From: Peptococcaceae bacterium | Lineage (GTDB): Bacteria; Bacillota; Desulfitobacteriia; Desulfitobacteriales; Syntrophobotulaceae | Length of the DNA: 64,000 nucleotides | Assembly (NCBI GenBank): GCA_009783315.1 | Contig: WRHI01000002.1 | Location: 1 to 64,000 of the forward strand | Direction of reading: 5' to 3' | Part shown: in pieces, positions 6,631 to 20,953 of the stretch | Layout of the letters: every line of letters begins with the position of its first letter | Position numbering within the stretch: position 1 is the stretch's first letter | Position numbers and translations under genes: made by a program | The notes under the pieces: model-generated | Database searches by the model: none | Seen by the model: only the letters and a program-made list of their open reading frames with translations | What the model was told of the DNA's origin: nothing

Positions 6631-6700
6631 GACAATGGACAATGGACAATGGACAAGGCTGATATCCTTCAGCCTGTGGACCAATGGACAATTAGGAAAC
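6631..6700. repeat. Dispersed boundary element, copy A: heptamer repeats flanking hairpin core GGCTGATATCCTTCAGCC
   Basis: gacaatggacaatggacaatggacaaGGCTGATATCCTTCAGCCtgtggaccaatggacaatt; related copies at 9771 and 24748. Confidence 0.85.
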
Positions 6701-8906: not shown

Positions 8907-9060
8907 AAAATAAATTCATTCTCAAAATAATAACAACCTGGAGGCTACCCTGCCAAGCGCTCTCATTAAGACCCAGCCCTCTCTCCCCGCACCTCAAAGG
9001 GGGCGCACATTGATCTCTCCGGTGATATCATGTAGAATAGAATAAGGTGCTAACTAATAC

Positions 9061-9095
9061 ATTGTCCATTGTCCATTGTCCATTGTCCATTGTCA
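9061..9095. repeat. Heptamer tandem repeat (ATTGTCC)x4 plus one imperfect copy, in leader of M50 protease gene
   Basis: read directly. Confidence 0.97.
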
Positions 9096-11016: not shown

Positions 11017-12093
11017 TCATTCCGTGCCAATTGTCAGGATTTCATCACAGGTCAGCCCTGTATCCTCCACGATTTCACTAATGGGTCTATTGCGTTTCAG
11101 CATATTTTTGGCGATGGCCCGTGCTCCTTCCATTCTGCCTTCCATTCTGCCTTCCATTCTGCCTTCCATTCTGCCTTCCATTCTGCCTTCTTCCCGTTCT
11201 TCAAGCAGCACCTGCTCACTCAGTTTTAACATAAACCTCTCACTCCCTTCGATTTTCAGAAGAATCTCATCATCCAGTATCGCCCCCATATATTCCTTGA
11301 CCAGTCGTTGTGAAAAGGCTGTATCATAATTGTTGACAAACGCGCAGAGATCTTTGTGTGTTGTGATTGACAAAAAGGCCTTTACTATGACAAGATTCTC
11401 CGGCAGCCCCTCTTTGTCCGATATCCTGTTCAAATTGACTTCGTAAAGGGTCATGAGATCCGAATAGACTTCCTTTGTGTTTACATCTGTAAACTGTATT
11501 TTGCTTACAGGTGGTACTTGGGGAGTGGTGTTGTTTTCGAATATAAATGTGATTGAAACTTGTTTGAGCTTCTCATACCGGCAATCTTGTACTTCCTGAC
11601 CGGCAAGTTCTTTGGATCCGTAATAGATATTCCTGTTTCGGTTGCGTGTTTTCAAGTAATGTCTTTGCATATCCAGAGTGTAAACCCGCGCTGTTTCATC
11701 TTTTAAATAGACATCAACCCGTATGCTGCTTTCGATGGCTTTCAGGATATCGTTCCTGTGCTCTGCCAGTGGGTCTGTTATTGTGATATCTTCACCGACA
11801 ACAGCACGAATGAGTGTTTCCGACAACTCTTTGTGATAAAACATGATGGAGAAGATGCGGTCGTTGGCGGGAAGGTAGGCTGTGTTAACAGTAATTTCAC
11901 CGGCTATGACCGCTGATTTCAATCTGGTGTACAGAAGCTGTTCTTTGTCAGCAACAGATTGAAATATTCCCTTTAATCTGGGGCTGTATTCGTGATAGTT
12001 GCCCAAATCGGGGGGCTCTCTGTCTCTGTCTCTGTCTCTGTCTCTGTCTCTGTCTCTGTCTCTGTCTCTGTCTCTGTCTCTGTTGTTGTTCAA
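11017..12093 (-). CDS. Rpn-family PD-(D/E)XK nuclease / putative transposase with N-terminal (RD)n and C-terminal (EGRM)n
   Basis: RVDVYLKDETARVYTLDMQRHY, SRYYYGSKEL-like YYGSKELAGQE, VSITFIFEN; C-terminal EGRM repeats then AKNMLKRNRPISEIVEDTGL. Confidence 0.85.
   Translation of the reverse strand: MNNNRDRDRDRDRDRDRDRDRDRDREPPDLGNYHEYSPRLKGIFQSVADKEQLLYTRLKSAVIAGEITVNTAYLPANDRIFSIMFYHKELSETLIRAVVGEDITITDPLAEHRNDILKAIESSIRVDVYLKDETARVYTLDMQRHYLKTRNRNRNIYYGSKELAGQEVQDCRYEKLKQVSITFIFENNTTPQVPPVSKIQFTDVNTKEVYSDLMTLYEVNLNRISDKEGLPENLVIVKAFLSITTHKDLCAFVNNYDTAFSQRLVKEYMGAILDDEILLKIEGSERFMLKLSEQVLLEEREEGRMEGRMEGRMEGRMEGRMEGARAIAKNMLKRNRPISEIVEDTGLTCDEILTIGTE
11126..11185 (-). repeat. 12-bp tandem repeat (CCTTCCATTCTG)x5, encodes (EGRM)n
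   Basis: five perfect units. Confidence 0.97.
12017..12082 (-). repeat. Hexanucleotide microsatellite (TCTCTG)x11, encodes (RD)n
   Basis: 11 perfect units, 66 bp. Confidence 0.97.
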
Positions 12094-12460: not shown

Positions 12461-15400
12461 TTATTCGTAATGAACAGGTATAAGAATCCGGAAATGAGGA
12501 ACAACAGCTTCCATATCGCCCAGGCTTACCGTTGGTTGGGGGGCTGTGGTCACATTGAAGCCGCGGTATTCATAATCCCCCCACCATTCTTCCCAGCGTT
12601 CTTCATCCAAAACAATGCGTTGCTCTGAGATAAGATTGGGGAACCGTCCCGGAGCTGCCATTCCCTGATAGACCCATCCATCGGGACGATATTGGTAACC
12701 GGGATCAACCTCAATAATTGTCCCAACAGGAAGATCTTCTCGGGAATAGCGCTTGGACGCAATAAACTTCGGAGAACTTGTTTGATCCATGACGGGATGA
12801 GGAGGATCGGCCTGATATCCGCCGTTAACGGAATCCCAGTATCCTCCGTTTGTCTCCCTCCAATCAAGAGAAACATATTTCGGTACATAAATACGGAAAT
12901 GCGCTGCTGCCTCCGCTTCTCTGCCGGTCAGATCCTCCTCATTCTGGGGGCACTGGTACATATTAAATCCACGATATTGGAAATCACCCCACCAGTCTTC
13001 ATCAACCAGAACACGCTTTATTGTGGTTACCGAGGGGCGACCGGGCGCCGCCGCGCCGTTCCGGACCCATCCATCAGGACGATAGCCGTAACCCGCATCG
13101 ACCTCTATAATGCTGCCTGGAGGGAGCTCTTCTTTGCTAAAGCGTATCGTCGCAAGATAGTACTTTGAAATGTCGTTGGAATCGTCTATCGAGGGATTGT
13201 TTATATATCTGCCGTCATTGGAATTCCAGAATCCCGGGTTATCTGCATAATGCAGGTCCAGTTCATAATACATGGTGTAATCAGGTTCACCCGGAATACT
13301 GTAAACCTTCGCCACACTGGGGGTTGTCTGACCAACATTGAAATCGCCGGTAAAACTCAGATTCGCGGCATTGCCGGCGGGGGCGCCCACAGTCGTCACC
13401 GTATAAATCAGTTTCACCTGGCTCTGGGGAGCGACCGTAAACGGTTCCGTCGGTCCGCTAACGCTATAACCGGCGATATCAAAAGAGCCTGTCACTGTGC
13501 CTGTTATGGAGGTATTATTAAAGTTGTAGACCATGACTTCGACCTGGGTCAGCCTATCACGCTCAATAATATATCCCTGGATCGACTTAACATCATGGGA
13601 ACGGGATTCGACCGGGAAAGTCTGACTCAGCACGATTTTCTCAGCTTCTGAAAACGTTTTCGCTGCGGGCATTATCTTCCGCGTATGGTTTGACGCCGTA
13701 TACGCTTCCGCCGGAATACTTCCCTGAATCGTCAGATAGATGGGGCTCTTACTGAGAGCAAGGGAGAAAACGTTATCGGCGGAAGGAACGACCTCCCTGC
13801 CCCCCATGATATTCGTTTGAACCCCGCTCGCCTTCTGCAGATTCAAGTGCGCGGTATCTTGTTCCTTGGTGGTCCAGAGAACCAGTACCGTGTCGCCATC
13901 GTTTTGGAAGGCGTAGCCATAGGCGCCTTCAGGCAAATCGGCAACCTCGCCAAGATATATGGCCTTTCCCAAGACTTCTGTCATGACGGACTGCGCGACA
14001 TAAGCGGCGTAAGGGGTTATCTGACCTGTCGCCGGATTCCCCGGACTGAAGGAACTCCAATAGACATCACTGTAAGGAGAATTCTGTTCTATATATCCCG
14101 GCACGCCACCAAACCAGAAATGTTTGTCCACTCCGGTTGACAGACTCATCGCTGTAGAAGTCACCAGATATTGCGCCTGTGCTTTTTGTTTTGCATACGT
14201 GTCCAATCCAGTGGGAGAATCCGCCATGCCTCCGCCGGCCTCGGTGACCCACGCCGGCATCCCGGCATTCAGCTCGTCTCTCTTATCCATATGCGGCGTG
14301 TTTTTGTCCAGGCGGAACATATACTCTTCATTAAAATATTTGTACGCTGCTTTGCTTGCCGGAGTCTCTGCGGCAGGATTAATATTGCCCAGATGATTAT
14401 GGAAGTTATAGACATCAATATACTCCATAATACCGTTTTCAAACATGTTGTCCTGATACGGACGGATAGCAGCGCTGCTCAGTTCCCCACGGGTCACCAA
14501 ACCTCCCATGGTGACAAGAGGATCAGGCATACCGGAATCGTGAAACCCGATAGCCATGGCTTTCAGGAAGGCAGCGTACTTGTCCGCGCCTTCTCCGGGA
14601 CCGGTGAAACCAGAACCGGTGGTCTCTTGTTCATTCCAGACTTCCCACATGGATACCTGATCCCTATAGGTATACCCATATTCTTTGGCCAATTCATAAG
14701 CTTTCCGAAGGTTGATCGGTAACGTGTCTCCCGGCGCCGCCTTATTCTCTCCTTCTCCCGGCAAATATTTAAGGGTGTCTGCCGGCATATATTGGACATC
14801 CTGTAACACTTTTAGCCCTTCTCTTTCAAAGGCGCTGAGGCAACGATCGGCCCTGGCTACGTTGCCGGGAGTATCCCATATCATTCTTTGATGAACCCAG
14901 GTAACGCCGCTGAGCTGGACAGCCCGGGCAAAATCCTCAATCAGAAACGCCTTGTTCCGGCACCATGTGTTGTTTAGCAGTATTGATGTGTCTGTCGCGA
15001 AAGGCGAATCATACTCAGGGTTCGTGTATTGGGGACGTTGTTTATAAGGTGTCACCACGGCAAAATTGTCAGAGATTTTTTCATCGGGGTTATCCGATTC
15101 CCAGACTGTTACAACATAGTGGCCCGTCTCCAGAGGGTTTACATGTATCGTAATTTCCGACCGTCCCGCCCAAATGACCGCGGTTCCGGAGTCATTCTGT
15201 CTTTCAAAATAATCTGTGATTACCCAGTTGACACCGGCGTTGCGAGCCGCTGTCTCCGGAAATTTGATCACAAAATTAAAATCATCGTCAGAAGTGTAAA
15301 TATTCAGCGGTTTTGTTCCTTTGACACAGGCCGCACCGGGCGCCGGGGTGGGCACAAGAATCCGAAAATGAGGAACCACCGCTTCCATATCGTCCAGGCT

Positions 15401-17494
15401 TACTGTTGGATGGGGGTCTGTGGTCACATTGAAGCCGCGATATTCATAATCTCCCCACCAGTCGTCCCAGCGTTCTTCATCCAGAATAATGCGTTGCTCT
15501 GAGATAAGATTGGGGAACCGTCCCGGAGCTGCCTTTCCCTGATAAACCCAACCGTCAGGACGATATTGGTAACCGGGATCAACCTCAATAATGGTCCCAA
15601 CAGGAAGATCCTCCCGGGTATAGCGCTTGGACGCAATGAACTTCGAAGAACTTGCTTGATCCATGACGGGATGAGGAGGATCGGCCTGATATCCGCCGTT
15701 AACGGAATCCCAGTACCCCCCGTTCGTCTCCCTCCAGTCAAGAGATTTGTAAGCCGGCACATAAATACGAAAATGAGAAGCCGTCTCCGTTTCCAGACCA
15801 ATCAGATCCACTGTATTTATAGGGAGTTTATAAACATTAAACGCCCTGTACTCGAAATCTTCCCACCAGTCTTCAGTCACTTCTACCCGCGATTCTGAGG
15901 TTCCGGGGGGACGCCCTGGCGCCGCTGCTCCATTCTTAACCCATCCATCAGGACGATAACCGTAACCCGCATCGACTTCAATAACGCTGCCCACAGGAAG
16001 GTCTTCTCTGGTGAAGCGTTTTGACGCAAGGTAGCGTTTGGAAAGATTCTCATCCGTATAGGTAATAAGTGGATTATTCGCGTATCCGCCATTACCGGAA
16101 TTCCAGTATCCCAGGGTATCACAAAGCCAGTCTGCTTCGTAGAATTTGGAAAACCATGCCGCGGCAAACGTCATATTCCCGGAAGGGCAAATCGTTTCAC
16201 CGGCTCCATATTTAACACCGGTATGAATATCCACCCAACCTGTAAACACATAGCCGGCAGAACCCGCTTTGGAGATCACCACAGGCAAGACAATCTCCGA
16301 ATCCCGGCTTGCTGTAACGTCATAGCTGTTGATCCTCTGTTTCCCGCTGTCGGGAACCGGCGTCTGGTCGCCACCGTCGGCATCGTAGGTTACTGTGATG
16401 GCGCGCTCATACAAACCGTAATATGGCCGGGGCTCCATATCAACGGGCAAGGTAACAACGGATCCGGCGTCAATAGGCGTGGCGTCAGACAGCGGAGATG
16501 TGCTCCAGCCCAAGGAAGTCCAGCCGGTATAAGTGTTTACCTGGGGAAGGGTTATGGTTCCGGTGGGATCGTTGTTATAAAACTCTGCTATCTCTTTCTG
16601 GGGCGGCGACGTTAGCTCGATCCCACTGTAATCAATAAAAGTCACTTCTACATCTTTTCTATAGATAGCAAACAGCACTTCATCTTTCGTCACTTCAAAG
16701 GGTTCCATCCCTTGATGCGCATCCGGATCCGTATTCCAGCCAACGAATTCCCAACCCGCCCCCTCCTTTTTACCTCTTGGACTCATTTCCACAAGGTCGC
16801 CGCTGTTGGCCGGCATATCTTCGATGGCTATGTTGTCGTCCTCTTTAGCACCGCCATTAACCTCATAGTTGTACGTGATGGTGTATTGAATCGGGTTCCA
16901 TTTCTCGTACATAATGGCGCTGCCGGATCCCTGCAGATCAATGATGGCCCAGCCTGGATGGTATATCGTACCGTTTGTACTGTTGAGCGCCCAGCCACTA
17001 AAATTCGTGCCCTCTTTGCTGATTCGTGACGGAAGCCGGAAGGTTTGTCCGCCAACAATCCTGGTAATATCAGCACTGTTGACGAATTGCCGACAGAAAA
17101 CATTGTCCGGCGCTGCGTCGCCGTCAACCTCAAAGGTCAGGGAAACCTGGCGTTCATAGATTCCCCAGAAAGTGATATCCCCGGAGACCCAAATGGTTTC
17201 TACCTGCTTCGGGTTGAAATCGCCAGATGTGGCATCCGGCAAACCGACCCATTCTCCGACCTCCCAACCGGGATAGTCGCTCAGCGGCGGTACCTGAACC
17301 TGCACACTCTCCCCGTCGGTTATCGTCAGGGTTTCTGTGCTGACATCCTGTTGGGTTCCGTTATAGCTGATAAACTTAACTGTTACTGTTTTCCCATCCG
17401 CCGCGTAAACATCAGCTACAAAGCATTGTGCGCTCAGAAGCAGCACAAAGGTAAAAGGGAATAGGAAAACGAACCAACACAATTTTGGTTTCAT
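12461..17494 (-). CDS. Large secreted multidomain protein: N-terminal InlB/Listeria-Bacteroides-type beta repeats, GH39/GH-A-clan-like glycoside hydrolase core, two copies of a two-module cassette
   Basis: signal peptide; VTFIDYSG/GWEFVGWN-type repeats; GH-like YRDQVSMWEVWNEQE and PAWVTEAGGG; four 'Y.YRPDGWV..G.AAPGR' modules. Start set to M4 (17494) by AGGAG spacing. Confidence 0.8.
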   Translation of the reverse strand: MKPKLCWFVFLFPFTFVLLLSAQCFVADVYAADGKTVTVKFISYNGTQQDVSTETLTITDGESVQVQVPPLSDYPGWEVGEWVGLPDATSGDFNPKQVETIWVSGDITFWGIYERQVSLTFEVDGDAAPDNVFCRQFVNSADITRIVGGQTFRLPSRISKEGTNFSGWALNSTNGTIYHPGWAIIDLQGSGSAIMYEKWNPIQYTITYNYEVNGGAKEDDNIAIEDMPANSGDLVEMSPRGKKEGAGWEFVGWNTDPDAHQGMEPFEVTKDEVLFAIYRKDVEVTFIDYSGIELTSPPQKEIAEFYNNDPTGTITLPQVNTYTGWTSLGWSTSPLSDATPIDAGSVVTLPVDMEPRPYYGLYERAITVTYDADGGDQTPVPDSGKQRINSYDVTASRDSEIVLPVVISKAGSAGYVFTGWVDIHTGVKYGAGETICPSGNMTFAAAWFSKFYEADWLCDTLGYWNSGNGGYANNPLITYTDENLSKRYLASKRFTREDLPVGSVIEVDAGYGYRPDGWVKNGAAAPGRPPGTSESRVEVTEDWWEDFEYRAFNVYKLPINTVDLIGLETETASHFRIYVPAYKSLDWRETNGGYWDSVNGGYQADPPHPVMDQASSSKFIASKRYTREDLPVGTIIEVDPGYQYRPDGWVYQGKAAPGRFPNLISEQRIILDEERWDDWWGDYEYRGFNVTTDPHPTVSLDDMEAVVPHFRILVPTPAPGAACVKGTKPLNIYTSDDDFNFVIKFPETAARNAGVNWVITDYFERQNDSGTAVIWAGRSEITIHVNPLETGHYVVTVWESDNPDEKISDNFAVVTPYKQRPQYTNPEYDSPFATDTSILLNNTWCRNKAFLIEDFARAVQLSGVTWVHQRMIWDTPGNVARADRCLSAFEREGLKVLQDVQYMPADTLKYLPGEGENKAAPGDTLPINLRKAYELAKEYGYTYRDQVSMWEVWNEQETTGSGFTGPGEGADKYAAFLKAMAIGFHDSGMPDPLVTMGGLVTRGELSSAAIRPYQDNMFENGIMEYIDVYNFHNHLGNINPAAETPASKAAYKYFNEEYMFRLDKNTPHMDKRDELNAGMPAWVTEAGGGMADSPTGLDTYAKQKAQAQYLVTSTAMSLSTGVDKHFWFGGVPGYIEQNSPYSDVYWSSFSPGNPATGQITPYAAYVAQSVMTEVLGKAIYLGEVADLPEGAYGYAFQNDGDTVLVLWTTKEQDTAHLNLQKASGVQTNIMGGREVVPSADNVFSLALSKSPIYLTIQGSIPAEAYTASNHTRKIMPAAKTFSEAEKIVLSQTFPVESRSHDVKSIQGYIIERDRLTQVEVMVYNFNNTSITGTVTGSFDIAGYSVSGPTEPFTVAPQSQVKLIYTVTTVGAPAGNAANLSFTGDFNVGQTTPSVAKVYSIPGEPDYTMYYELDLHYADNPGFWNSNDGRYINNPSIDDSNDISKYYLATIRFSKEELPPGSIIEVDAGYGYRPDGWVRNGAAAPGRPSVTTIKRVLVDEDWWGDFQYRGFNMYQCPQNEEDLTGREAEAAAHFRIYVPKYVSLDWRETNGGYWDSVNGGYQADPPHPVMDQTSSPKFIASKRYSREDLPVGTIIEVDPGYQYRPDGWVYQGMAAPGRFPNLISEQRIVLDEERWEEWWGDYEYRGFNVTTAPQPTVSLGDMEAVVPHFRILIPVHYE

Positions 17495-17613
17495 GCTGAA
17501 CATCTCCTGTATTTTATTCGGTATATTTCAGCGGCGAAACGACAGCTTGTCCGGCCGCACGATACCCTTAGCCCTAAAACATACTATCTCTTTGAACAAC
17601 GCCTCCGACAGAA

Positions 17614-19407
17614 TCACTGCGATAAATATTTATTATAAATTCTGAAGTCATAAAAGGAGACCTTGGCATCCATCAGCAGAAGTCCCACACAACCTGAGGC
17701 AAACGTGTCGTCATTGAATCCGACTACCCAAACACTATTCCCATAGATATCGACTCTGTCTCCCTTCATGACAACTGAGATCGTCACCTCGTCTCCAAGG
17801 CCAACTCCAGGTATGATGTGACCTTTCAGATCCGGTCGATTGGCAAATCCATCACCGCCGGCGGGTATTCCCTTATTAACATTTAACATCATCCCCTTCT
17901 TTGTCCAACCCACAAAAACAACATATCCGCTCTGCCACTGATTCCCTGTGGTCTTTTGTCGAAGGATCAAAGCGGAGCAGAGATCGTCGGTATCAGGATT
18001 ACCGTTCAGTGTCAATTTTGTGAAAATGATTCCATCAGATACCACAGTGTCCTTAAGATGGGCGTATTTTGATTTTGCCGTGCCCGAGTCATGCACCAGT
18101 TTTCCTTCCTCACTTCTCCAGTTGTGATAATCAGCCGGGAACAAATCCCAGTTTTCAAGATCAGCGCAGGGATCCGAATAATTGGATAGACCAAAGAACT
18201 CATACAATGGCAGAAGGTTTTGAGCATTAGCCACACTATCGCCGGGATTCATAGTGCCGGTCTGATCAATATCAATCCGAACCGCCCCGCCCAGCAGCAC
18301 AACCAACACCAGGATCCCTATGGGAAAAACCCGGCCGCCGTGTTTGACTGTCGTCGCCATAATATTCTCAAAACGTTTTTGCAGTTCCTTTAGATTCCCT
18401 CTGCGCAGATTGGCGTCATGGCTGAAAGCCGTAGTCAGCACAGGCAGACGCGAGGTCGTGCCCGGCTTCACCGTAGACAGAATCGACTCGCCGTATTCTT
18501 TCCGGCGGGCAAGATCCTGCCCATGAATGACCAGCTCGTCACAAACCAGCTCCAGATCATGGCTGCTCGCGCGATTCATGATCCACACCAGAGGATTGAA
18601 CCAATGAACCGCGTTGGCCAGATCCGTCGCCAGCTTGTACCACAGATCACGACGCCGGCAGTGAGTCAGTTCATGACGGATGATATGCCCCAGCAGGCGG
18701 GGGTTGTACTCCTGCTCAGGCAGAACCAACACCGGATTGATCATTCCTGTAACAAAAGGACTTTGTACCGCCCGGCAGACCCTGATGGGCATATTCTTTT
18801 CGAAACCTGTCTCTTCCATAGCCTGACGGACGAAACGGGTTATGTCAACACTGTCGCAGGGCCGCCAGGCCTGGTGGAGCCAGGAACGGAACCGCAGAAT
18901 CGCGATCCCGCGCATACAGAGAAAGAAAACAGTTCCCAACAGCCACAACATAATGAGAACATCCAACAGCGACATACCGGATGGAATCCCGATACCAGAC
19001 AAAATCCCGTTAATTCCCGCGGTTTCGTCTGTCTCCGCCGAAAGAGGAACCCCTGTTCCAACAACCGTCAGACCTTCCGTCTGAATTGTTTCCGGAACCG
19101 GCGTAACGTCATCCGTCCCCTGATTCCGAAACGCCGGTTCAGACGCGGTCCTGCCGCCGGAAGCGCCATCAGCAGACCTACTGACGGCGGAATCCGGCAC
19201 AGAGAAGGTAAACAACGCCCAGCTCCCGGGCAGGGTCACCGGCAAAATAAGCCACAGGGCCAGAATCAGCCAGACATGATAACGCCACCGGGGGGAATAT
19301 CTTCTGCTCAACCACGGCGTCGCCGCCATAACCACGCCGATTAGCAGCCCGGCAATCAAAGAAACGGTAATGAATTTCAGAAAAAACATTTGTACAAGCT
19401 CCGGCAC
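17614..19407 (-). CDS. BlaR1/MecR1-like M56 metallopeptidase sensor with C-terminal ConA/LamG-like domain
   Basis: HIIRHELTHCRRRDLWYKLATDLANAVHWFNPLVWIMNRASSHDLELVCDELV (M56). C-terminal ~220 aa beta-rich (ENWDLFPADYHNWRSEEGKLVHD...VSFYDFRIYN), no beta-lactam sensor (SxxK/KTG) motifs seen. Confidence 0.88.
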   Translation of the reverse strand: MPELVQMFFLKFITVSLIAGLLIGVVMAATPWLSRRYSPRWRYHVWLILALWLILPVTLPGSWALFTFSVPDSAVSRSADGASGGRTASEPAFRNQGTDDVTPVPETIQTEGLTVVGTGVPLSAETDETAGINGILSGIGIPSGMSLLDVLIMLWLLGTVFFLCMRGIAILRFRSWLHQAWRPCDSVDITRFVRQAMEETGFEKNMPIRVCRAVQSPFVTGMINPVLVLPEQEYNPRLLGHIIRHELTHCRRRDLWYKLATDLANAVHWFNPLVWIMNRASSHDLELVCDELVIHGQDLARRKEYGESILSTVKPGTTSRLPVLTTAFSHDANLRRGNLKELQKRFENIMATTVKHGGRVFPIGILVLVVLLGGAVRIDIDQTGTMNPGDSVANAQNLLPLYEFFGLSNYSDPCADLENWDLFPADYHNWRSEEGKLVHDSGTAKSKYAHLKDTVVSDGIIFTKLTLNGNPDTDDLCSALILRQKTTGNQWQSGYVVFVGWTKKGMMLNVNKGIPAGGDGFANRPDLKGHIIPGVGLGDEVTISVVMKGDRVDIYGNSVWVVGFNDDTFASGCVGLLLMDAKVSFYDFRIYNKYLSQ

Positions 19408-19421
19408 AGGTTATCCCCCCC

Positions 19422-19820
19422 CTATTGATCCTCCTGATCCAGAACCTTACGCAGTTCGATGATATCCTGCTCATTCAGAGCGCCGCTTTTTGTCAGAGCC
19501 GTAACCATATTGGCGATGGAGTTGCCGAAAGCCTTCTTCAGGAACCTGCGGCCTTCCCATTCCCGGTATTCCTCACCCGAAATGGTAGCGGTATAGTAAT
19601 TGGTGGTGGTGGAACGATCACAATGGACGAACCCTTTTCTGCACAACCGGGCCAGCATGGTCATGACATTGGAAAGGGGCCAAGCGCGACCGGTCAGATG
19701 ATCCATGATAAAGGTGGAAGTCAAGGGACACCCTTCCGCCCAGAGCACTGTCATAAGATCCCATTCCGCTTCGCTCAGCGTCGGCTTTTTCCTGTCATCA
19801 TTCCCGGATCCGTTTAACAT
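19422..19820 (-). CDS. BlaI/MecI/CopY-family repressor
   Basis: LSEAEWDLMTVLWAEGCPLTSTFIMDHL...WPLSNVMTMLARLCRKGFV; start at MLNGSG. Confidence 0.93.
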   Translation of the reverse strand: MLNGSGNDDRKKPTLSEAEWDLMTVLWAEGCPLTSTFIMDHLTGRAWPLSNVMTMLARLCRKGFVHCDRSTTTNYYTATISGEEYREWEGRRFLKKAFGNSIANMVTALTKSGALNEQDIIELRKVLDQEDQ

Positions 19821-19848
19821 AAAGACTGCGCCCCCTTCGAATACTAAT

Positions 19849-19864
19849 TTACACACTTGTGCAA
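19849..19864. promoter_or_regulatory. Candidate BlaI-type operator TTACACA-CT-TGTGCAA
   Basis: inverted repeat ~29 bp upstream of the repressor start. Confidence 0.55.
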
Positions 19865-19979
19865 TAAGCATACCCTCACAAAGGAGTCTTGTCAACACTA
19901 TTAAGACCGATCTATACCATGAAATTAATTCCACAAATCCCAATTATGTAACTCTAATCCTCCACTTGAAATGCCTGAT

Positions 19980-20140
19980 ACCGTTCCCCAATTGCCCCTT
20001 GTCCCCATTGTCCATTGTCCATTGTCCCTTGTCCCAATTGCCCCTTGCCCATTGTCCCCCTTGTCCCTTGTCCCAATTGCCCCTTGTCCCCATTGTCCAT
20101 TGTCCATTGTCCATTGTCCATTGTCCCAATTGTCCCTTGT
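19980..20140. repeat. ~160-bp heptamer-derived repeat array (ATTGTCC / CCCCATTGTCC / CCCTTGTCCCAATTGC)
   Basis: read directly; between blaI-like and ABC transporter transcription units. Confidence 0.95.
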
Positions 20141-20953
20141 TCAAACTTTCCACTCCAGCAACTTCGACAAGAACTCAGCCAACGCCGCCGTTGCAGGCTT
20201 CGCAAAAACCTCCTTGCTCGCCCCATACTCCATTATCCTGCCCTCACACAAAAACGCGACCTTCTCACAGGCATGCAACGCAAATCCCATTTCATGGGTA
20301 GCGATGATAAAAGACAAGTTCTCCTTTTTCAGTTCACGGATCATATTCAAAACTTCGGTGGTATACTCAGGATCAAGGGCGGAAGTAGGCTCATCCAGCA
20401 GCAACATCCCCGGTTTGGGCGCCACAGCCCTGGCAATAGCTATGCGCTGTTTTTGCCCGCCGGAAAGCTGAGACGGCTTCTTATCCGCCTCCTGAATCAA
20501 ACCGAAACGCTCAAGCAGTTCATGAGCCCTCGCCCTCGCTCGCTCTCCGGCAAAACCATGGACTTTGATCAACGGCAAAGTGATGTTCTCCCACGCGCTC
20601 AAATGGGAAAAAAGACCTCCCTGCTGAAAAACAAACCCGATCTTTTTCCGGTAATTCTCATGGTCAACCGCCCTGTGACCGTCAACAACCGCTGTTCCGC
20701 CCGACGCGGGAATAAGACCGCCCAGAATCCGCAGCAGCGTCGACTTCCCGCAGCCGGAACGGCCAATAAGCGCCAAGGTTTTGATATCATCATCAAAGTT
20801 AATATCCCGCAAAACATAAGTCTTCTGATCATGACCGCGGCTATAATCATAATCGGGATCGGCGCCGCTATGACCGGAACGTCCGGCGCGCCCGGCGCGC
20901 CCCGATAAATCAAAGGTTTTCCACAGGCCCCGCATTTCAAGACGCAAAAGCAA
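20141..20953 (-). CDS. Polar amino-acid ABC transporter ATP-binding protein
   Basis: GRSGCGKSTLLR, LSGGQKQRIAIARA, LLLDEPTSALDPE. Confidence 0.93.
   Translation of the reverse strand: MLLRLEMRGLWKTFDLSGRAGRAGRSGHSGADPDYDYSRGHDQKTYVLRDINFDDDIKTLALIGRSGCGKSTLLRILGGLIPASGGTAVVDGHRAVDHENYRKKIGFVFQQGGLFSHLSAWENITLPLIKVHGFAGERARARAHELLERFGLIQEADKKPSQLSGGQKQRIAIARAVAPKPGMLLLDEPTSALDPEYTTEVLNMIRELKKENLSFIIATHEMGFALHACEKVAFLCEGRIMEYGASKEVFAKPATAALAEFLSKLLEWKV

Follow-up and report, generated by a model that had tools for sequence, protein, structure and literature searches.

Within the window, a 64,000-nucleotide stretch of a Peptococcaceae genome (contig WRHI01000002.1, positions 1 to 64,000), a minus-strand cluster runs from a promoter and an adjoining dyad through a blaI-type repressor gene and an M56 membrane protease gene to, after a gap of 110 nt, a gene for a giant secreted protein. 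The sigma-70-like promoter, TTGACA-N17-TATGCT (19867-19895, minus strand), is assigned by consensus match only (10 of 12 positions) and is the top-scoring site of its kind within positions 17300-20300. Just downstream, near the likely transcription start, lies the perfect dyad TTACACA-CT-TGTGCAA (19849-19864, 0 mismatches), a sequence pattern that we regard as the putative BlaI operator; shuffled sequences gave 0.24 matches per window with up to 3 mismatches allowed. The repressor gene (19422-19820, minus strand; 132 aa, PF03965 E = 3e-24) belongs to clade A of this genome's BlaI tree, and the M56 protease/sensor gene (17614-19407, minus strand; 597 aa) matches PF05569 with E = 8e-45, so the original description of a HELTH-bearing M56 core behind a BlaI gene and an inverted-repeat operator was borne out. 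It had also placed a co-directional giant gene after 118 bp; the direction is correct, but the gap measures 110 nt to the first ATG and about 119 nt to the ATG of the MKPK start. A scan of this gap (17504-17613, minus strand) for the promoter-like and terminator-like sites that could separate the two genes called none, and a single blaI-M56-giant transcript is therefore plausible from the sequence. As the two genes share a direction and no terminator was called between them, we infer that the giant gene may be read from the blaI promoter by operon-like read-through. Several intergenic gaps of the window are filled by heptamer-like tandem repeats (GACAATG/CATTGTC; 19987-20140, 6631-6656 and 9060-9094), one of them directly upstream of the blaI promoter, and these repeats yield spurious long ORFs. 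Two genes from the M56 unit, positions 11017-12093 encode a PDDEXK_2-like protein with RD and GRME repeats that scores slightly below the Pfam cut-off.

The window M56 protein scored 153.7 bits against PF05569 (cut-off 31) and carries its HELTH zinc-binding motif at residues 245-249 (18661-18675, minus strand), with LELVCD as the third ligand region. The NCBIfam BlaR1 model covers only residues 147-354, at 104 bits versus a cut-off of 400. In a full-length structure model built with 39 relatives, pLDDT exceeded 90 across much of residues 1-380 and the ectodomain was not confident. Foldseek hits 1-6 for this model were all Staphylococcus aureus BlaR1 cryo-EM structures (E = 8e-7 to 9e-5), with low global TM-scores of 0.26-0.33 by query length. 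The core thus has a BlaR1-type membrane-protease fold as modeled. The structure prediction and Foldseek search originally proposed for the C-terminal part were less productive: a single-sequence AlphaFold model of the ectodomain was discarded at pLDDT 32 as giving no confident fold, and galectin hits of the full-length model (E = 1-4) were discarded as proof, being weak and falling on the part that was not confidently modeled.

Profile comparisons were more informative for this ectodomain (residues ~406-593; 17629-18192, minus strand), which we classify as ConA/DUF1080/CBM66-like. Searched alone against Pfam, it had no significant match (13.2 bits for PF06439 versus a cut-off of 26.8). Ten homologous copies, found elsewhere in its own genome in both M56 and secreted proteins and 29-51% identical in the final set, group it with the ConA/DUF1080/galectin/CBM66 domains. 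The best match of the resulting 11-copy profile was the fructan-binding CBM66 domain of Bacillus subtilis levanase (E = 0.002), followed by galectins (E = 0.16); the database names the levanase PDB entries only as 'levanase', and we take them to be CBM66. Among the 11 profile members, eight match the DUF1080/3-keto-disaccharide hydrolase family (PF06439, best E = 1.2e-6) and four a galactoside-binding lectin family (best E = 1.5e-4). The beta-lactam sensor motifs SxxK and KTG are both absent from the last ~190 aa. These profiles, rather than any confident structure model, give good support to a concanavalin-type lectin fold, in agreement with the beta-rich, ConA/DUF1080-like C-terminus lacking SxxK and KTG that had been described, and they point away from the penicillin-binding C-terminus raised as its alternative.

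The giant gene (12461-17503, minus strand) encodes 1680 aa beginning with a signal peptide (MKPKxRW...LFLS...) common to its paralogues. The protein contains InlB B-type (List_Bact/Flg_new) repeat blocks (16154-17413, minus strand; PF09479 E = 3e-15 and a custom profile) and, four times over, an unnamed 'GYWNSGNGGY' domain, the first two copies at 15350-16111 and the last two at 12476-13234 (both minus strand). A putative GH-A type catalytic region at 13853-14659 (minus strand) resembles the GH39 enzyme PslG (PDB 4zn2/5bx9, E = 8.6e-4) and offers a putative acid/base in E958 (WNE) and a putative nucleophile in E1088 (TEAGG); no Pfam GH family matched the protein. Signal peptide, PslG-like region and both motifs agree with the 1.68-kaa secreted, GH-like neighbor originally described.

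The window unit is one of many in its genome, a 151-contig assembly (93.7% complete) that we covered at the loci around M56, BlaI and selected giant genes. PF05569 has 24 matches in about 20 genes and PF03965 has 23, nearly all paired; two congeners have 1 and 5 M56 matches. The HExxH motif is intact in all 20 of the 20 M56 proteins, and blaI is kept in nearly all units. Giant secreted proteins (0.7-2.8 kaa, with CAZyme-type domains) adjoin 18 of 21 units, versus 1.8 expected by random placement (P = 8e-17); two of the three remaining units are cut by contig ends, and the third belongs to a distinct M56 subfamily. Most giants beside units carry a related signal peptide, and their domains include GH26, GH53-like, GH99/WbsX, SASA esterase, DUF4886, CBM4_9, B_lectin and DUF1080. 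The M56 ectodomains are of at least seven types: InlB-type repeats, CBM4_9-like, CBM6-like, DUF4886 (SGNH), ConA, the unnamed GYWN and Big/cadherin. We also noted decayed copies, among them L257:6121-8133, in which the protease core is deleted and the first membrane segment is fused to InlB-type repeats, L260:5887-6804, a truncated M56 gene under a convergent giant gene, and L258:5422-6740, an M56 gene in pieces.

Ectodomains tend to resemble domains of the giant next door. Summed over units, ectodomains and adjacent giants scored 3200 bits, versus 1149 ± 275 for shuffled pairs, and none of 50,000 shuffles scored as high. By clade, the result was 0 of 20,000 shuffles for clade B alone and a non-significant 1681 of 20,000 for clade A, which includes the window unit. 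InlB-type repeats are uninformative for matching because they occur in 25 of 28 giants; without the units that have only these repeats, 1 of 20,000 shuffles did as well. Rare ectodomain types were common to sensor and neighbor in 9 of 12 units (2.2 expected, P = 1.8e-5); of these nine, L022 is counted on an overlap of 43 aa where its contig ends, and L031 on a giant whose sequence was read as two pieces. Domain trees place the closest giant-borne copy in the neighbor in 11 of 22 cases (5.7 expected, P = 0.001). An M56 fragment that came to light later, where contig C3 ends, has ConA in both its ectodomain and its adjacent giant, which ranked 1 of 28. Matching recurs across two M56 clades that have diverged from each other. 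Mismatched pairs are the window unit, L035:12082 and L023. The window's ConA type is absent from its own giant and present in giants of other loci, and the GYWN type of the window giant recurs as the M56 ectodomain at L035:12082-14133. Over 265 aa, that ectodomain shares 80% identity with domains of a giant located on a different contig (L254:11276-13795), suggesting that a sensor domain was transferred recently. Since the window pair is mismatched and clade A alone falls short of significance, the claim rests on the whole set, most firmly on clade B; the evidence is stronger at genome scale and weaker for the window pair specifically.

Dyads of the form YTAC-N4/5-GTAR precede blaI and giant genes 13 times, versus 0.8-1.4 expected, a count whose pattern was first read from the counted promoters and which includes few independent hits beyond three source units. 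Each of those units (L036, L037 and L031/L030) has separate promoters for the two genes, and of 18 giants it is the unit's own whose dyad comes closest to that of blaI. Most newly added units have no such dyad, none was found before the window giant, and the window blaI dyad is different but related in sequence. Because the pattern is post hoc, missing in most added units and different in the window, the sharing of BlaI-type dyads by blaI and giant genes is only suggestive of common regulation. A single operator common to all units was rejected, as dyads vary between units and the ranks of cognate promoters are mixed. Apart from the dyads, a dispersed, MITE-like repeat of ~100 bp (GACTGTTACGAGCCCACATAATATCC...TGCACTTTTAAAATATGCACCC) occurs in complete or partial copies, often near contig ends, upstream of blaI at L024, L025, L029 and L032 and of the giant at L028. 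By eye, a TACCACTTGACA-like sequence occupies the -35 position upstream of giants L021, L022, L023, L027 and L035, some with a TAGCAT -10, and is a possible common promoter element of these genes.

Outside this genome, we found no counterpart of the window unit. A set of 147 M56 proteins (122 distinct N-termini) drawn from other genomes lacks all six profiled ectodomain types, so the search in this set for M56 proteins with ConA C-termini came back empty; the Big/cadherin type has an orthologue within the genus. A window-type unit was sought without success in 31 relatives, in order, class and phylum samples (75, 84 and 398 genomes) and at 68 GTDB loci. Since the phylum scan scored three candidates per genome, absence elsewhere is not proven. 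The expected linkage to a glycosidase in relatives was not seen, as no orthologue of the unit turned up in other genomes, and the evidence consists of paralogous units of one genome. The ConA domain was not found in IMG/VR, and a plasmid search gave only matches below 60% identity, mostly staphylococcal. A search of the open literature on M56/BlaI with carbohydrate sensing turned up no such variant, consistent with its having been called undescribed. In other genomes, M56 proteins at L103, L146, L063 and L064 have, by eye, LytM/M23-like or phosphodiester-glycosidase-like C-termini. Judged by sequence, M56 sensors may be more diverse than annotation implies.

Among known systems, BlaR1-BlaI and MecR1-MecI of S. 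aureus share the M56 gluzincin core, the adjacent BlaI-type repressor and the promoter dyad, and provide the top structural match. The BlaR1 sensor domain is class D beta-lactamase-like and resembles the enzyme that it induces (PMC7593790), a parallel to the matching described here. Unlike BlaR1 and MecR1, the present units have a lectin/CBM- or CAZyme-like sensor domain instead of a penicillin-binding one, a presumed giant secreted target, and about 20 copies per genome. Other non-penicillin extracellular domains on an M56 core are known, namely M23 peptidase (PMC9662197) and DUF4352 (PMC3924330); the accessible parts of these reports mention no lectin, CBM, InlB or SGNH types and no matching to a neighboring enzyme. 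For Clostridium thermocellum, DAP-seq of BlaI regulons identified self-regulated BlaI in an operon with BlaR1 genes, similar to the organization here and read as a beta-lactam response, with no CBM ectodomain or CAZyme target in the accessible part of the report (PMC8457756). The closest functional analogue of the M56 units would be the RsgI proteins of C. thermocellum, paralogous membrane sensors of the SigI-RsgI system with proteolytic signaling and varied C-terminal domains (PMC12203970, PMC4711584). These domains are divergent CBM, GH-like and other sensor types (PMC12203970), and the sensors are thought to tune secreted polysaccharide-degrading enzymes (PMC12203970, PMC4711584). RsgI is an anti-sigma factor cut by other proteases, whereas here sensor and protease are one M56 protein and a BlaI repressor serves as the regulator; a search of this genome for the RsgI N-terminal domain (PF12791) gave no match.

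In place of a penicillin sensor, the units bear sugar-binding or sugar-enzyme-like modules, usually of a type also present in the neighbor, so they probably sense polysaccharides rather than antibiotics. We conclude that they appear to be lineage-restricted, one-component glycan or polymer sensors built on BlaR1/BlaI hardware, comparable to SigI/RsgI in cellulosomal clostridia. The reading we prefer, with moderate confidence, is that ~20 paralogous BlaI-M56 antirepressor switches sense extracellular polymers and control adjacent secreted proteins, the window unit being one channel. For the bolder version we see roughly even chances: that in one lineage a penicillin-resistance switch became a modular polysaccharide-sensor array of ~20 members, each borrowing its domain from the enzyme it controls, as the BlaI/M56 counterpart of SigI/RsgI. 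Without ligand, BlaI would repress the blaI-M56 promoter from which it is itself expressed and also, whether directly or via read-through, the adjacent giant. Binding of an extracellular polymer to the lectin/CBM- or CAZyme-like ectodomain, usually of the neighbor's type, would activate the cytoplasmic M56 protease and inactivate BlaI, by analogy to BlaR1 (PMC7593790), freeing its own operon and allowing the secreted carbohydrate-active protein to be made. The ligand's identity, BlaI cleavage and induction of the giant are all inferred. For the glycan-sensing variant paired with a glycosidase that was originally proposed, the lectin-like, non-penicillin ectodomain and the repeated adjacency to giants held up; the pairing in the window did not, as the ectodomain type is missing from the neighbor.

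Matching could instead be a by-product of recombination or gene conversion between adjacent repeat-rich genes, with ectodomains as drifting add-ons and giants regulated otherwise. The tandem, repeat-rich units, the decayed copies at L257, L260 and L258, the M56 ectodomain that shares 80% identity with a giant from a different contig and the three mismatched units all fit this account; universal retention of HExxH, near-universal retention of blaI and matching in two diverged M56 clades argue against it, and we consider it unlikely. Slightly less probable still is feedback on export or the envelope, in which the ectodomain recognizes the giant itself, like with like, or the cell's own surface polymer instead of a food glycan. 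Such self-sensing would explain a sensor and a secreted protein with the same domain type, InlB-type repeats are typical of surface and adhesion proteins, and the window glycosidase region resembles PslG, which acts on self-made exopolysaccharide; the CBM4_9, CBM66/galectin, SGNH and GH types, on the other hand, indicate carbohydrate targets. That the unit is a standard BlaR1 which detects beta-lactams through a diverged sensor domain is highly improbable and already contradicted by sequence: the M56 core and neighboring blaI are as in BlaR1, but SxxK and KTG are missing, the NCBIfam BlaR1 match is partial and far under its cut-off, and the ectodomain profile matches CBM66 and galectin.

M56/BlaI systems are commonly taken as beta-lactam resistance, and many 'BlaR1-like' annotations would need rechecking if glycan sensing by these units is true. 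The genome would then hold ~20 natural sensor-enzyme pairs, with the ligand predictable from the identity of the ectodomain, and would supply one-component polysaccharide sensors suited to swapping. Another possible family of sensors was noted in the genus and in this genome, where loci L248, L249, L254, L255 and L261 encode proteins that by eye are Ser/Thr kinase-like (LWGxWxVxxLIGEGSFGKVYKI); those at L248, L249, L255 and L261 end in C-terminal InlB-type repeats, an ectodomain type that is also present in giants.
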